This document shows, one piece after another, positions 14,949 through 38,100 of a stretch of 51,254 bases of DNA. The DNA is from an uncultured Deferribacteraceae bacterium. GTDB taxonomy: Bacteria > Chrysiogenota > Deferribacteres > Deferribacterales > Mucispirillaceae. The position numbers were made by a program, and so were the translations under genes. The notes below the pieces were generated by a model. It made no database searches, was not told the origin of the DNA, and saw only the letters and a list, made by a program, of their open reading frames with translations. Numbering within the stretch: the stretch's first letter is position 1; every line of letters starts with the position of its first letter. Location: NCBI GenBank assembly GCA_947041165.1, contig CAMRCY010000013.1:1-51254 (forward strand). Reading direction: 5' to 3'.

Positions 14949-15800
14949 ATGAAGCGACTACACATATCACATAACGATCTTGACGGCGTTGGCTGTGGTA
15001 TATTAATAAAAAAATTCTTACCAGGAAAAACAGATACTGTCTACCTTTCATACGACGAAATTGATCCACTACTAAACTCAGATCTTGATCGTTACGATGA
15101 AGTTATTATCACTGATGTTTCTCCATCATATAAATCTGTTGCAAAAGTTATATCTGAGAAAGAACTCCTAATTATAGATCATCACCTATCTAGCGAATCT
15201 TTAAAAGATTTTCCGAACGTTTATCACGATATAAATTTTTGTGCAACGATGCTTACATATAAATATCTTGAAGATAACGGATATCCAGTAGAAGAGTATA
15301 AAGAGTTAGCTGAAGCTATAAATGATATTGATCTCTGGCATATGAAACGAAAAGATAGCTTAGAGATGGGTGTGCTTTTTAATGTGTTAGGAATATCTAG
15401 GTTTGAAAGTAGATTTCTTAAAACTCCGTATAACGGCTTTAACGAACTTGAAACAACTATTATCGAACTTGAAACTGAAAGAAAAGAAACATATATGTTT
15501 AAAGCGATGAAAAGACTTAATAGCTATGTCGATAAATCTGGTAAATCTGTAGCAGTTGTTTTTGCCGAAGCATACGCTTCTGAATTAGGTAATAAAATTA
15601 TTGTTGATAATGCGATAGATTATGTTGTTATAATAAATGCTCAAGCAAAAAGAGTATCACTACGTTCTGCTCCACATATTGATGTTAGATTACTTGCAGA
15701 AAAATTCGGTGGTGGTGGACATAAAAACGCTTCAGGATTTCAGTTAAAAGATAAAAGTGTTGATATTGAAAAGATTTTAACATCTATGGAGATAATTTAA
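14949..15800 (+). CDS. DHH/DHHA1-family phosphoesterase (NrnA/NrnB-like)
   Basis: This 283-residue protein carries the DHH superfamily metal motifs: HISHNDLDGVGCG (N-terminal aspartates), VIITDVSPS, LLIIDHHLSSE (the DHH motif itself) and a later NDIDLW. The C-terminal DHHA1 domain has the glycine-rich FGGGGHKNASGF, which binds the substrate backbone. Family members degrade nanoRNAs, pAp or cyclic dinucleotides; the sequence alone does not say which. The ATG at 14949 has GAGG 11 bases upstream and places the first motif right at the N-terminus as in homologues, so I prefer it to the ATG at 14928. It ends two bases before ysxC. Confidence 0.88.
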   Translation: MKRLHISHNDLDGVGCGILIKKFLPGKTDTVYLSYDEIDPLLNSDLDRYDEVIITDVSPSYKSVAKVISEKELLIIDHHLSSESLKDFPNVYHDINFCATMLTYKYLEDNGYPVEEYKELAEAINDIDLWHMKRKDSLEMGVLFNVLGISRFESRFLKTPYNGFNELETTIIELETERKETYMFKAMKRLNSYVDKSGKSVAVVFAEAYASELGNKIIVDNAIDYVVIINAQAKRVSLRSAPHIDVRLLAEKFGGGGHKNASGFQLKDKSVDIEKILTSMEII

Positions 15801-15801
15801 A

Positions 15802-16371
15802 TTGAATGTAAGTTTTATAAAATCAGCAGCTAAGCTTAATCAGTTTCCTGAGAGCGAACTGCCTGAAATATGTTTCTCTGGTAGAAGTAACGTCGGTAAA
15901 TCATCTTTACTTAACTTATTGACGGAAAGAAAATCACTCGCAAAAATAGGAAAAACACCTGGTAAAACAAGGTTAGTTAATTTCTTTAATATTGATAACA
16001 AATATATCTTCACAGATCTTCCTGGATACGGGTACGCTAACGTATCTAAAACAGAGAGAGCAAGCTGGGGTGCATTGATCGAAGGATATCTTCATAAACG
16101 TGGCAACCTTAAATTAGCTATTCAATTATTAGACTCAAGAAGAGTACCTAATGAAAGTGATATGCAAATGATTGATTTCTTCAACTGTATCAAATTAGAT
16201 ACATTAATCGTACTTACAAAATGTGATAAATTATCTAATAACCAGTTAACTAATCAGATGAAAATGATATCTGAAAAACTATCTATCTCTAAAGATAAAA
16301 TTATTCAAACAACTATTAGAAAGAGTAGTTCAAAAGATAAGATATTAGAGTATATAAACGAGCATTATTAA
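15802..16371 (+). CDS. ysxC: Ribosome-biogenesis GTPase YsxC/EngB
   Basis: This 189-residue GTPase of the YihA/YsxC family is needed for late assembly of the large ribosomal subunit. G-box motifs: G1 GRSNVGKSSLLN, G2 around TPGKTR, G3 DLPGYGYA, G4 TKCDKL and a degenerate G5. The DLPGYGYA sequence is specific to this family. It begins with TTG at 15802; the ribosome-binding GGAG sits inside the last codons of the DHH gene (ATGGAGATAATT), indicating coupled expression. The length is typical (~195 residues). Confidence 0.95.
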   Translation: MNVSFIKSAAKLNQFPESELPEICFSGRSNVGKSSLLNLLTERKSLAKIGKTPGKTRLVNFFNIDNKYIFTDLPGYGYANVSKTERASWGALIEGYLHKRGNLKLAIQLLDSRRVPNESDMQMIDFFNCIKLDTLIVLTKCDKLSNNQLTNQMKMISEKLSISKDKIIQTTIRKSSSKDKILEYINEHY

Positions 16372-16479
16372 ACGCTTAGATAAAATAAATGTATAAATAA
16401 AATTATTTATATAGTTCAATCCTATCAGATATTTTAATAGATATGTGGTGTAAAACATTCTATTTATACTATTTTTTAG

Positions 16480-16508
16480 TTGACTAAGTTAAAATATATG
16501 AGTAAAGT
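16480..16508 (+). promoter_or_regulatory. Candidate sigma-70 promoter for the Trp-codon leader
   Basis: TTGACT at 16480-16485 is followed after 17 bases by TAAAGT (16503-16508). It lies 41 bp before the leader ORF. The -35 is near consensus and the -10 is weak, so this is a moderate call. Confidence 0.4.
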
Positions 16509-16548
16509 ATTATTAACAAAATTTTAAAAGGACAGAGAGTAAATTATT

Positions 16549-16638
16549 ATGATAACAAATATCTACAACATGTATTGGTGGCAAATGTTATTAAATTTAT
16601 TCATGCTAAAAGGAGCAATGTCCGTGCATTCTAATTAA
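16549..16638 (+). CDS. 29-aa leader peptide with tandem tryptophan codons
   Basis: A short ORF begins at ATG 16549 with GAGAG about nine bases upstream and encodes a peptide containing MYWWQ: two adjacent TGG codons at 16576-16581, with TAT or TAC Tyr codons at positions 6 and 9. Tryptophan is the rarest residue in most proteins, and a WW pair early in a ~30-codon ORF placed before a terminator is the classical layout of a ribosome-mediated attenuator. A short stem (AACAT / ATGTT) has both Trp codons in its loop. It could instead be a small hydrophobic protein in its own right. No T-box consensus is visible. Confidence 0.5.
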   Translation: MITNIYNMYWWQMLLNLFMLKGAMSVHSN

Positions 16639-16686
16639 CTAAAATTATAATTATTAATTTATAATTATTTATAGATAGTAGATATC

Positions 16687-16718
16687 AACGTAGAGCTTTT
16701 TGGCTTTACGTTTTTTTT
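16687..16718 (+). terminator. Intrinsic terminator between the leader ORF and the transporter-like gene
   Basis: The stem AACGTAGAGC / GCTTTACGTT (10 bp, one G-T wobble) has a TTTTTG loop and is followed by eight T residues. It lies 49 bases after the stop codon of the Trp-rich leader ORF and 52 bases before the ATG of the membrane protein gene. That is where an attenuator terminator would be. A second AT-only hairpin lies between leader and terminator (ATAATTAT repeats around 16649-16670). Confidence 0.8.
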
Positions 16719-16769
16719 ATGCTCATTTTCAGAAAACGATATAAATATTTTTATCAAAGGGGTGTTATT

Positions 16770-17831
16770 ATGTCAAAGGTTATATCAAAAGAAGAGGTTA
16801 AAGTGTTCGTCTACAACATACTGAACGGACTTGGAATGGGTGTTATATTTGCATTAATCCCTGGCGTGTTGATAGGTGAAATTATGAGAACATTTATAGA
16901 TGTGTTTCCGTACGCAAATGAGATCTTAGCGATCACTACAATATCAACAAGAATTATGCCTGCGATCATAGGAGTATGCATTGCGATGCAATTTAAATTC
17001 TCACCGATGGCAACTGTTTCAATAGGAGCTGCCACGATGATAGCATCTGGTGTTGCAACATTTAATCCAAATAGCACCTTTACATTAGCAGGAACTGGCG
17101 ACGTTATAAACTCACTAATCACTGCTACAATCGCTGTGATTGTTGTTAAGATATTAAACACAAGATTTAGATCAATTCAAGTTATAATCCTTCCTATAAC
17201 CGTAATATTAGTAGCAGGTGGAATAGGCACATTGTTGCTCCCTTATGTATCATTAACAACTAGTTATGTTGGACAAGTTATAGTTTTATTCACTACCTTG
17301 CAACCAACTCTCATGTGTATATTAATTGCGATGTCGTTCTCAGTTATAATCGTTACACCGATCTCAACGGTTGGATTAGCGTTAGCTATAGAGCTTGCAG
17401 GAATAAGTGCTGGTGCTGCAAATTTAGGAGTTGTTGCCTCATCGTTCGGACTTGGAATTGCTGGACTTAAAGTTAATAATTTTGGACTTGTAATATCACA
17501 TTTTATAAGCTCACCAAAAATGCAGTTAGCAAATTTTGCAAGAAAACCAACTATCATATTACCTACCCTTTCAATCGCTGCGATATTAGGATTTGTATCA
17601 AGTTTTATAGGTATCAAAGGAACATCACTCAGTGCAGGATTTGGACTTGCAGGGTTTATAGGTCCTATCAATGCTTTCAACTTTATGGACTATAACACAG
17701 CAAATAAAATAATTATAATATCAGTTATGTATTTTATTCTACCACTTATTTTAGCGTTTATATTCAAATTTATTTATATGAATAAACTGAAAATAATCGC
17801 ACCCAATGATTATAAAATAAATTTAGATTAG
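16770..17831 (+). CDS. PfoR/PTS-EIIC_2-like integral membrane protein
   Basis: This 353-residue protein consists almost entirely of transmembrane helices with glycine-rich turns (VYNILNGLGMGVIFALIPG, LAIELAGISAGAANLGVVAS, FGLAGFIGPINAFNFMD). The pattern matches the PTS EIIC_2/PfoR family of putative transporters, whose substrate is not established. AAAGGGG lies seven to ten bases before the ATG at 16770; the open frame extends to 16719 but that would start inside the terminator region. The preceding Trp-codon leader suggests that its expression, and perhaps its substrate, relates to tryptophan or another aromatic amino acid. The next gene encodes a D-2-hydroxyacid dehydrogenase. Confidence 0.8.
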   Translation: MSKVISKEEVKVFVYNILNGLGMGVIFALIPGVLIGEIMRTFIDVFPYANEILAITTISTRIMPAIIGVCIAMQFKFSPMATVSIGAATMIASGVATFNPNSTFTLAGTGDVINSLITATIAVIVVKILNTRFRSIQVIILPITVILVAGGIGTLLLPYVSLTTSYVGQVIVLFTTLQPTLMCILIAMSFSVIIVTPISTVGLALAIELAGISAGAANLGVVASSFGLGIAGLKVNNFGLVISHFISSPKMQLANFARKPTIILPTLSIAAILGFVSSFIGIKGTSLSAGFGLAGFIGPINAFNFMDYNTANKIIIISVMYFILPLILAFIFKFIYMNKLKIIAPNDYKINLD

Positions 17832-17923
17832 GTTTAAGTTAATTCAGATTAGTTGATTAGTTACTTATAGAAATAATTTCACAACTAGCATGAAAATATT
17901 AAAAAAGTTTTAGGAGATAGATT

Positions 17924-18919
17924 ATGAAAATCATTATGTATGCAGTAAGAGATTATGAAAAAACAGCGATAGATTTAGCTGAGCAAAAATTTAATATCAT
18001 ATTAACAAAATGTCCAGATCTTTTATCTATCGACAATGTATATCTAGCAGAGGGACACGACGCTATTATTTTTACAGGAAGCTGTGATGCAGGTAGCGAG
18101 ATTTTAGAGAAACTTTCATCGTACAACATTAAATATATCACAACAAGAACAGCAGGTTACGACAATATAGATCTAAAAGTTTTAAAGCGATTAAACATGA
18201 AATCTGCACACGTTCCATTATACTCTCCGAACGCAATATCAGAGTTTACTGTTCTATCTATTTTATCAATTTTAAGAAAGTATAATATTATGATTAGTAG
18301 AGTTCAAAAACAAAATTACTCTCTAAATAACAATATTGGTAGAGAGATCAGAAATATGAATATAGGTGTGATAGGAGCTGGAAGAATAGGTTTAAAAGTT
18401 ATAGAAACGCTAGACGGTTTTACTCCTAAAAAAATCTTAGCAAACGATATTGTGATAAATAAAAATGTGGAAAAATATGCAACATACTCATCTCTTGAAA
18501 CTCTTTTAAAAGAGAGTGACATTATAACTCTTCACACAAATCTAACCGACTCAACTTATCATATCATTAATAAAGAAAGTATCAAACTTATGAAAGATGG
18601 TGTTGTGATTATTAACACTTGTAGAGGTGCTGTGGTTGATACGAAGGCTCTCCTTGATGGTATTGATAGTGGAAAGATTGCAGGTTATGCGACTGATGTT
18701 TATGAGTATGAAAAAAATATTCTCCATTATAATTTAGAGGGAAAAATTATTGATGATGAGCTATTTAATAGATTGAAAAATAACGACAAAGTTATTATAT
18801 CACCCCACTCTGCTTTTTATACAGATGAAGCTGTTGAAAATATGGTTGAATATTCTATAAAAAACATCTATGATTATATTGAAATCGGTAGCTCAGATAA
18901 TAATATTTCAACCGATTAA
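17924..18919 (+). CDS. D-lactate dehydrogenase-like NAD-dependent D-2-hydroxyacid dehydrogenase
   Basis: This 331-residue enzyme reduces a 2-oxoacid to the D-2-hydroxyacid with NADH. The Rossmann motif NIGVIGAGRIG is central. The catalytic set is present: Arg in INTCRGAVVDTKAL, Glu in ATDVYEYEKNI and His in ISPHSAFYTDEA. The N-terminal TRTAGYDNIDL and VPLYSPNAISEFTV are typical of D-lactate dehydrogenases. The substrate could be pyruvate, or an aromatic 2-oxoacid given the Trp-regulated gene upstream; the latter is only inference from neighbourhood. The ATG at 17924 has TAGGAG about seven bases upstream. Confidence 0.92.
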   Translation: MKIIMYAVRDYEKTAIDLAEQKFNIILTKCPDLLSIDNVYLAEGHDAIIFTGSCDAGSEILEKLSSYNIKYITTRTAGYDNIDLKVLKRLNMKSAHVPLYSPNAISEFTVLSILSILRKYNIMISRVQKQNYSLNNNIGREIRNMNIGVIGAGRIGLKVIETLDGFTPKKILANDIVINKNVEKYATYSSLETLLKESDIITLHTNLTDSTYHIINKESIKLMKDGVVIINTCRGAVVDTKALLDGIDSGKIAGYATDVYEYEKNILHYNLEGKIIDDELFNRLKNNDKVIISPHSAFYTDEAVENMVEYSIKNIYDYIEIGSSDNNISTD

Positions 18920-18963
18920 AGGATTTAGATATCACATTACGCAATTATATTTTTGTAGCAGGA

Positions 18964-19512
18964 GTGACTTGTGCATTAGTACTGCTCTCTACTGCGTACA
19001 TATATTCTAAGAGTAACACACATGATGCTCAAGTAACTTTTCTTGGTGATGAACAATATCTAACTGAAATAGTTAAAGATATTTATAGTGCGAAAAAATC
19101 TGTGTACTGCGGTAACTATATGTTTAAACTTGATGAAGAGTTGATAGGCACACCTAAAAATGAACCAGTAGCATTAATCGCAACGGCGTTAGTTAAAGCT
19201 AAAGAGAACGGAGTGGATGTTAAACTGTTACTTGATATTGAGAAGAAAACAGATAGACTAAGTCGGTATAATACCAAAACAGCCGACATACTTAATAAGC
19301 ATGATATCGAGATATATTTTGATAGCAGAAAGAAAAGGTTTCATCCAAAAATGTGCGTTATAGATAATAATATCGTATATATCGGTAGCCATAATTTCAC
19401 CTATTCAGCTATGAAACGCAACAACGAAGTGTCTGTTAAAATTGTATCAAAAGATATTGCAAAAGATAGTATTAAATATCTAAACGAGATAGATAAACAA
19501 CTTTACAAATAA
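18964..19512 (+). CDS. Membrane-anchored PLD-family protein with a single HKD motif
   Basis: About 182 residues from GTG at 18964. An N-terminal hydrophobic segment is followed by a phospholipase D-like domain with one HxKxxxxD motif in FHPKMCVIDNNIVYIGSHNFTYSA. Single-HKD proteins of this size (Nuc-like) act as dimers, usually as nucleases or phospholipases. The start is problematic: GTG 18964 has GGAG directly abutting it and cuts the membrane helix short. Translation from ATC at 18931, seven bases after AAAGGA, would give a complete anchor (LRNYIFVAGVTCALVLLSTA). It starts immediately after the dehydrogenase gene, so it is probably in its operon. Confidence 0.8.
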   Translation: MTCALVLLSTAYIYSKSNTHDAQVTFLGDEQYLTEIVKDIYSAKKSVYCGNYMFKLDEELIGTPKNEPVALIATALVKAKENGVDVKLLLDIEKKTDRLSRYNTKTADILNKHDIEIYFDSRKKRFHPKMCVIDNNIVYIGSHNFTYSAMKRNNEVSVKIVSKDIAKDSIKYLNEIDKQLYK

Positions 19513-35181: not shown

Positions 35182-38100
35182 ATGTCAACTGTTAATAGTT
35201 TTATTAACAACGTAGGTACAAAAGTATCGACTACTAGAAGATCTTTTATTAAAGGTCTAACAGCGCTTGGACTGCTCACGGTTACAGTAGGTTGCGAGAG
35301 TAGAGATACAAGTTCTAGTAAGATGTCAAAAGGACTATCAGAAGATCCTTATTTTTCAGAACCAAACAAGATTTACAGATATGGTACAACGGCTCATAAT
35401 TGTGGTGGCAGATGTGTTACTCAAGCAGAAGTACATAACGGTAGAATAGTGAGATTTTTCACTGACAATTCTACAGAAGCATTTGATGGTTCAGATTTTG
35501 ATATCTCTGACAGAAATTCACCTCAAGCAAAAGCTTGTTCAAGATGTAGAGGTTATAAAGGAAGGCTATATCATCCAGGTAGATTAAAGTATCCGTTAAA
35601 ACAGACTAAACAACGTGGCGACATGAGTGGGTTTGTAAGAATATCTTGGGACGAAGCTTTAAAAGAAGTTGCTACAAAATTAAAAGCTGTACAACAAAAA
35701 TATGGACCTGAAGCATTTCATCCTGTATATGCTTGTGGAAACATATATTCAAACTTTCAATCATCTGGATATAAAGGGGTTCTATCTGTTGTAAGCCCTA
35801 ATGGAGTAGCATCAGGTGCTGCACCTGCAATAAAACTATTAGGTGGTGCTACATCATTTGTAGCTGATTACTCATATCATCAATATGAGTTTATGGGAGG
35901 CTACGGCGTATCTTATTCAGGATTTGATTCAGGCGATGGAGTTATGGCTGGACAGATAACAATACCACCTACTACAAATGATATCGCATCAAGCCAAAGC
36001 AGAATAGTTCTATGGGGAAGCAACATTGTTTCAACAGTTAATCCGTTAAGCAACTCATGGGTTAAATCTATGCAAGACATGAAGAAAAGTCGTCCTGATT
36101 CTATGGTTTATTATATAGGGCCTGAATTTTCTGACACTGGAATAACTGTTGCTGATGAGTGGATACAAACAAGACCTTACACCGATGTTTCGTTAATTTT
36201 AGCGATCATATACGAGCTTGTTGCCACTGATAAATTAGATATAGATTATCTTGATACTATGGTCTACGGTTTCTCAGGTTCGCCACAATATTGGCTACAT
36301 GGAAAAAATAGAACTATCCTTACAGAAACACCTGATGAGTCAGTTATAAAAGAGTATCTTAAAGTTGATGCAGTTCCAGCTGGAGAATCATTTCTATCAT
36401 ATCTTTTAGGTAACGGAAAACTACCTGCATCTACAAAAACTGATTGGGCAGATTATTCAGATGATAGTTCAACAAACTATATAGCAAAATCATTTGGTAC
36501 ATCAGATGATAGTAGAAAAAGATTTGCTGTGTGTTCATATAAAAACTCTCTTGGCACTAAAACAAAATACCTTACTAAGGCAGATTTTAAAACTCCTAAA
36601 ACTCCTGAATGGGCATCTAAAATCTCTGGTATTCCTGCATCTAAAATACGTGAATTAGCTTTACTTTATTCTGAAGCATCTCATCCTGGGAAACAAATTT
36701 GGAATGAGTGGGCTGGTGGACAATTAAAACAATCTGAAGGTTGTTCAACTATATTTGCTTTACAAGTTTTAAATATAGTTACTAAAAACTGGGGAGTAAC
36801 TGGAGCTGGTGTTGCACGTGGTGCGATTGCTAAAGTTCAAAAGGTTGATCCTAAAATGATTAATATAGAAGATGTTAAACCTAAATCGTGGAAAACTATC
36901 CCTCCTGCACCACAAACAATAGTAACAGGAGCTACGCAGTGGAACAGTGCTGTTAAGTTCGCATTTGGAGATATGTTAAAACATAACGGTTACAAACCGA
37001 ACACTCCTGACTGGTCTACTAGAGAGTTTGCAACTGGTAAAGCATATTATGACGATGGTGGCGTAAAAGGTTTAGTTAAACGTATATACGATGAAAACAA
37101 TCTACCTAAAACATTTAAAGATAAAGATAATAACGAATTTTATCAGTGGATCGCAACTGACGGAACTAATGTTGATTCTATGGCTAAAGGAGTTGGTAAA
37201 AAACCTGTATACTCTGGATTTAGATTTATATTAAACTCTGGTGGAAATATACCTGTTAATCAGCACGCAAACGCCCTTGACAGCGTTTCTATGTATGAAA
37301 ACCTACCTACCTATGGATACAGCAATAAACGTCTTAATGTGGCTAATATGTCTGATGCATTCTATCTTGTTTCATTTGACAACTTTATGTCAGCATCACC
37401 TAGATATTCAGATTATGTTCTTCCTGCTAAAACTTCTTGGGAGCAAGCAGATTTTAGAGATTTATTTTGGGGAAACACTATATATCAAGATGAAGCTATT
37501 GCAGGTCCTGGTGAGTCTAAATCTACATGGGATTTTGCAAGGGATCTTATAGTTGAATACGGCGGAGAAGAAGAAGCTAAAAAATTCGCACCTGAGCTTA
37601 TGTCGTTCAAAGAATATTTTACTGATTACTACAAAAAAAATGTTGAACCAAAAGATTCTGGATCAGCATATGAAGGAAAAACTTTTGAAGAGTTTTTAGA
37701 GAAACCGTTTCTAACTAATAAACCTAACAATCAAGAAAGCATACCTGTAATGTCTGACACAAGAATTGCATTAGAGGATTATTTATCGAACAAAGATAGT
37801 AATAAAAGTATACCGTTCACATTTAATGAAGGACTATATACATCTATTATCACACGAGATGCATACACATTATCATTTGGTGGTATAGGTGGTGATCAAT
37901 ACTCTAATCCTACCGAGTGTCCTAATCAATCTGGAAGATTTCATATCTACTCTGGATCACTTGTGTGGAGATATAAAAACGCATACAATAAATGGCATGC
38001 ATATTTAAGTGAAGATAATCGTGGACAAAATAAACTTGACGCTGAAGGTGATGACATCGTCTACCCTATCCCTATGTATTTTGCTTACGAAGATTATTTC

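Follow-up and report, generated by a model that had tools for sequence, protein, structure and literature searches.

The window, a stretch of 51,254 nucleotides that forms contig 13 of a 2.1-Mb genome, carries a short leader ORF and an intrinsic terminator ahead of the genes for a membrane protein and a dehydrogenase. The features on which our analysis bears are the following:

16480-16508, + strand: promoter-like site, TTGACT-17-TAAAGT, putative, from a consensus scan
16530-16623, + strand: hairpin 1 (1:2-like), GGACA (16530-16534) with UGUCC (16619-16623), in folds of all four species compared
16549-16638, + strand: leader ORF, 29 codons and TAA, MITNIYNMYWWQMLLNLFMLKGAMSVHSN, from the sequence and its conservation in four species
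16576-16581, + strand: tandem Trp codons TGG TGG, codons 10-11, the proposed stall site, invariant in four species
16608-16701, + strand: candidate antiterminator, AAGGAGC..CCGU (16608-16625) with ACGUAGAGCUUUU (16688-16701), from folding of truncated transcripts
16687-16718, + strand: intrinsic terminator, AACGTAGAGCTTTTTGGCTTTACGTTTTTTTT, 11 pairs at 16687-16712 and T tract at 16711-16718
16770-17831, + strand: PTS_EIIC_2 membrane protein, 353 aa, Pfam PF13303 (E 4.5e-94)
17924-18919, + strand: D-2-hydroxyacid dehydrogenase, 331 aa, PF02826/PF00389 (NAD-binding and catalytic domains)

An earlier note on this DNA had described a 29-codon ORF with adjacent Trp codons and, before the membrane protein gene, a terminator with eight Ts; we find the ORF exactly where it was placed and confirm the positions of the terminator and the gene. 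Tryptophan accounts for 0.61% of the residues in the long ORFs of the window and, given this share, the probability of finding WW in 29 residues is about 0.001. WW is present in 3 of the 981 short ORFs (10-60 codons) of the window, and the leader ORF is the only one of the 981 to combine it with an ATG start; the other two, at 35400 (+ strand) and 29875 (- strand), are both TTG-started and probably arose by chance. The leader peptide, of 29 residues, is hydrophobic. The Shine-Dalgarno sequence of the leader is weak in the window, and in folds this region is able to pair with leader codons. Transcription is estimated to start near 16515; promoter-like matches number 29, with 23.6 expected by chance. 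The leader/terminator block matches no Rfam family in a search of the window, and a T-box covariance model gave no match in the window or near homologues. A T-box or other regulatory Rfam element was rejected, none being found at the locus or upstream of the homologues.

Alignment of the region upstream of orthologous genes, the check proposed with the first description of the locus, reveals the WW leader ORF and the terminator in all four congeners, that is, in the window and three other species, the only four close orthologues. The order of genes (GTP-binding protein, leader, transporter, dehydrogenase) is also the same in the three other congeners. Across the four species, 87 of the 90 columns of the leader ORF are invariant (97%), as are 29 of 32 in the terminator (91%), 22 of 29 in the promoter-like site (76%) and 88% of those in the hairpin region between the ORF and the terminator, whereas the figures for the flanks are 42% upstream, 52% in the 5' UTR and 47% in the spacer from the terminator to the gene. 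Moreover, silent-site distances (dS) are 0-0.07 in the leader versus 0.37-0.87 in three neighbouring genes. Because of this column invariance and the near-frozen silent sites of the leader, the unit from promoter to terminator is under strong selection, at the RNA level as well as at the peptide level. The changes seen in the ORF (I5F, M13T and one silent change) are not by themselves proof of translation, and, with their common origin and synteny, the four orthologues provide just one event of WW conservation. The leader was not found elsewhere in 60 genomes covering the rest of the family and order, in further genera of the phylum or in a search of plasmids, and no second copy was found in the same genome; in every species it is single copy at a fixed locus. 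Weak matches to the leader (L019-L024) were rejected, as they lie inside other genes or contain stops.

The terminator is the sole one found in 15000-19000, where 1.3 are expected in shuffles; its presence alone is unremarkable, and what is remarkable, judging from the alignment, is its conservation (91%, as against 47% just downstream). In the fold of the full transcript at equilibrium it forms at P>0.98, together with hairpin 1 over the leader start and an AU-rich hairpin 2. Full-length equilibrium folding was set aside as uninformative: for the E. coli trp leader, even when a ribosome is stalled at Trp, it likewise yields the terminator alone. Hairpin 1 encloses a stem that covers the leader start and, if the leader were untranslated, would hold the 5' strand of the antiterminator. 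Without the terminator, the fold of the leader is no more stable than shuffles (z -1.2). We also folded transcripts that end just past the 5' arm of the terminator, with a ribosome masking part of the leader. Under these conditions the arm is paired upstream at P 0.42-0.58 in the four species when the ribosome is at W10/W11, versus 0.07-0.14 when it is at the stop codon; in the E. coli trp control the arm is sequestered at 0.56 at the stall and 0.00 at the stop. The upstream pairing is that of the candidate antiterminator, which encloses hairpin 2 (about 16630-16684). When the intervening sequence is shuffled, mean pairing of the arm at W is 0.54, so that the antiterminator is no stronger than in shuffles. 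The stall-versus-stop difference is equalled in 21, 88, 31 and 23 of 400 shuffles for the four species, which are not independent (5-22%), and in 4 of 400 for the E. coli trp control. In these models the one unusual feature is the stall-versus-stop difference, which is suggestive and falls short of proof; the antiterminator, which the earlier note had left undefined, can be folded as 16608-16625 with 16688-16701, though not clearly better than in shuffles or beyond chance. As stalls at most codons before codon 19 act like a stall at W10/W11, WW is not uniquely placed. An 8-bp pairing, AUAUCUAC/GUAGAUAU, between leader codons 4-6 and 16678-16685 was rejected, being broken on both sides in L006. 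By eye, a pairing of the terminator loop, GCUAAAAGG/CUUUUUGGC, is a further candidate.

The membrane protein scores 315.6 bits against PF13303 (gathering score, 28.9). Its AF2 model is of low confidence (pLDDT 65) and the best fold matches to it are PTS IIC proteins of the glucose superfamily, none of the matches passing E 0.001. The best solved relative of the dehydrogenase is the (R)-2-hydroxyglutarate dehydrogenase 1xdw (E 5e-68), followed by D-lactate dehydrogenases; in NCBIfam it falls below the cut-offs for every named enzyme, and its substrate is not predictable from sequence. The two genes are separated by 92 nt in which no terminator was found, and are probably co-transcribed. A tree of 49 PTS_EIIC_2 family members, with long branches and with C. 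perfringens PfoR left out, splits at a 100/100 branch into 21 PfoR-type proteins and 28 others, the transporter of the window among them. Going by this split, the transporter, first labelled PfoR/EIIC_2-like, is not PfoR proper. The PfoR-type clade consists of the 21 rows without a dehydrogenase neighbour (2-hydroxyacid dehydrogenase, 0/21). Of the 28 members of the linked clade, 14 adjoin a D-2-hydroxyacid dehydrogenase and 9 a PanE/ApbA-type reductase (together 23/28), 3 form the Fusobacteriota set described below and 2 are others; many rows are close relatives, and these counts do not represent independent events. PanE-like enzymes can act as D-2-hydroxyacid dehydrogenases. The transporter-dehydrogenase pairing is also seen in unrelated genomes. 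One of the 2 others in the linked clade, from Gemella bergeri (L036:1489-2538), adjoins both a PTA_PTB phosphotransacylase gene and a gene for a pyridine-nucleotide-disulphide oxidoreductase of the dihydrolipoamide-dehydrogenase type, neighbours that we read as those of branched-chain oxoacid clusters, suggesting branched-chain 2-oxo acids as substrates there. The strongest clue to the substrate is that the transporter is found again and again beside enzymes which are unrelated to each other but all convert between 2-oxo and 2-hydroxy acids. From the PTS_EIIC_2 loci surveyed (L009-L014 and L028-L073), members of the linked clade are probably misannotated when they are called sugar PTS or PfoR. 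Clostridial and some fusobacterial homologues of the transporter have no leader upstream. Ahead of the transporter-dehydrogenase pair in two species of Clostridium lies a gene for what resembles a MerR-type regulator (L009:4072-4890 and L014:4065-4883), with a TTGACAATGACCTTGGGTCA-like promoter region, so that regulation seems to have been replaced there. Literature searches returned nothing on the transporter-dehydrogenase gene pair.

In the genus, whose four genomes have a completeness of 93-98.6%, neither trpA (PF00290) nor trpC (PF00218) was found in any genome, whereas all 14 control genomes were positive. Since chorismate synthase and prephenate dehydratase are kept in all four while trpA and trpC are lost, Trp-specific auxotrophy is likely in the genus. 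The leader matches an auxotrophy of this kind: Trp codons occur in tandem in it, whereas those for Phe and Tyr form no runs. Both trpA and trpC are present in G004, from a sister genus of the same family. In the sister genus g3 (G005-G014), nearly all genomes are likewise without trpA, which one (G010) retains, and have neither the leader nor the PTS_EIIC_2 transporter of the window.

The best independent support for an attenuator in the window is found in another phylum. Three Fusobacteriota transporters (L071-L073) fall in the dehydrogenase-linked clade, and a leader, MSLRKVRAMFWFMYYFKTKVYI or close variants such as MSLRNFRAIFWFTYYFKTKVYI, lies upstream of each operon, with a strong Shine-Dalgarno sequence, alternative hairpins and an intrinsic terminator. 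Five copies of this type of leader, each before a terminator, were found in four Fusobacteriota genomes (the loci are L071/L074, 5968-6356; L075, 3140-3560; L076, 8140-8570; L079-L082; and L086). Codons F10, W11, F12, Y14, Y15 and F16 (FWF.YYF) are invariant in all five copies, while seven other codons change residue. In two of the genomes the leader heads an operon of genes for an Fe-ADH-family dehydrogenase, a class I aminotransferase and the transporter; in a third it occurs twice, before a lone transporter gene and, at another locus, before the dehydrogenase-aminotransferase pair. The Fe-ADH-family enzyme, which may be a hydroxyacid dehydrogenase, matches the glycerol dehydrogenase model and PRK10586, which we take to be E. 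coli YbdH, below the cut-offs of both. Folding of truncated Fusobacteriota transcripts revealed no stall-dependent change, and a conserved UCCCAA/UUGGGA complementarity, of the hairpin foot with the terminator, is only a candidate pairing. Literature searches returned nothing on an aromatic leader of the Fusobacteriota kind.

In view of the anatomy of the locus and its conservation, the loss of trpA and trpC, the gene linkage and the parallel aromatic leader of Fusobacteriota, we consider it probable, with real room for doubt, that the block at 16480-16718 is a leader-peptide transcription attenuator that responds to shortage of Trp. Transcription would begin near 16515 and the leader would then be translated. 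With ample charged tRNA-Trp, the ribosome would reach the stop codon and cover about 16620-16650, and the terminator at 16687-16718 would end transcription. If charged tRNA-Trp runs low, the ribosome would stall at codons 10-11, leaving the strand 16608-16625 free to pair with the 5' arm of the terminator and allowing read-through into the transporter and dehydrogenase genes. The induction at low charged tRNA-Trp put forward in the earlier note is strengthened by the ORF and terminator conserved in the four congeners, by the loss of trpA and trpC and by the Fusobacteriota leader, and we retain it in conditional form. Its choice of substrate, tryptophan or an aromatic precursor, is revised. Because the clade of the transporter stands apart from the PfoR type and goes together with 2-hydroxyacid dehydrogenases, the likelier substrate is an analogue of the 2-hydroxy or 2-oxo acid kind, and not tryptophan itself. 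The best account is attenuation, under Trp shortage, of an operon for the transport of 2-hydroxy/2-oxo acids, although we hold any exact substrate with less confidence than attenuation as such. The pair of proteins would import a 2-hydroxy or 2-oxo amino-acid analogue and interconvert both forms. In a Trp auxotroph, indolelactate or indolepyruvate is a plausible candidate; the last step of salvage, to tryptophan, could fall to a transaminase whose gene lies elsewhere.

The main rival, which we regard as unlikely, is that the block is a separate short unit with a terminator of its own, which yields either a functional hydrophobic protein of 29 residues or a regulatory RNA, and that the transporter is expressed from elsewhere. 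Such a unit would account for an ORF constrained at both amino-acid and silent positions, beyond the needs of an attenuator, and for conservation that covers the stretch from promoter to terminator and not the spacer to the transporter. That spacer, however, is just 51 poorly conserved nt and leaves little space for a conserved promoter; the unit was not found a second time in the genome, nor outside the genus, and the Fusobacteriota leader, which is duplicated ahead of two transcription units of related function, has the look of an element that controls the genes behind it. Less likely again is a nascent-peptide arrest switch of the TnaC type, in which free tryptophan or a related metabolite would be sensed in the ribosome tunnel and read-through would depend on arrest or release, and not on tRNA charging: the whole peptide is conserved to its last residue, and not WW alone, as arrest would explain, but constraint at silent sites implicates the RNA too, and the terminator is intrinsic, with no Rho-type region. 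We give very little credence to a type I toxin-antitoxin reading, in which a structured mRNA would encode a toxin-like small membrane peptide and be paired with an antisense RNA. The peptide is hydrophobic (29 aa), pairing is possible between its Shine-Dalgarno region and leader codons, and the minus strand has promoter-like sites; but promoter-like matches are no more frequent than chance, the minus strand has no terminator, and each species has the gene just once, always at this locus. An accidental ORF in an AT-rich intergenic region, beside an ordinary terminator of the upstream operon, is nearly refuted, for although short ORFs and terminators are common and the terminator count is not above shuffles, the silent sites of the leader are frozen while neighbours reach dS 0.87 and conservation drops sharply on both sides.

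To our knowledge, PTS_EIIC_2 proteins have no established substrate, as was stated in the earlier note and not contradicted by our literature searches. Aromatic leaders in two phyla, loss of Trp-specific biosynthesis and linkage to 2-hydroxyacid dehydrogenases, read together, point to a concrete and testable class of substrates. We tentatively suggest, as a possibility that we rate below even chances, that this orphan clade transports 2-hydroxy/2-oxo analogues of amino acids, that two unrelated phyla have independently placed it under leader-peptide attenuation by shortage of aromatic amino acids and that auxotrophic gut bacteria thus salvage aryl-lactates (indolelactate, phenyllactate) as precursors of amino acids. 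If so, other gut bacteria would obtain tryptophan from the aryl-lactates that gut lactobacilli, bifidobacteria and clostridia make, and these compounds would not be just end products.

Among known systems, the block resembles E. coli trpL in its short leader ORF with tandem Trp codons and a U tract, in three potential pairings (1:2-like, 2:3-like and a 3:4 terminator) and in a similar stall-versus-stop behaviour in truncated folds. Unlike trpL, it precedes transporter and dehydrogenase genes and not biosynthetic ones, in a host without trpA and trpC; its leader is double the length, WW being followed by 18 codons, its antiterminator is weaker against shuffles, and no sequence homology is claimed. 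With PTS_EIIC_2/PfoR proteins (PF13303) the transporter shares the family match (E 4.5e-94) and a low-confidence model that resembles PTS IIC folds, but it lies across the 100/100 branch from the PfoR-type members, in the clade linked to 2-hydroxyacid dehydrogenases. Whether pfoR regulates perfringolysin is itself a matter of dispute (PMC4448169). The dehydrogenase has both Pfam domains of the D-lactate, D-2-hydroxyisocaproate and (R)-2-hydroxyglutarate dehydrogenases, among which are its nearest solved structures, and differs from the named D-isomer-specific 2-hydroxyacid dehydrogenases in falling below all NCBIfam cut-offs. Finally, tnaC of the tryptophanase operon encodes a Trp-containing leader peptide that precedes genes of Trp-related catabolism and transport, and in having a leader peptide with Trp the block is similar; tnaC, however, acts through arrest and Rho with one critical Trp, whereas the block in the window has an intrinsic terminator and tandem Trp codons.
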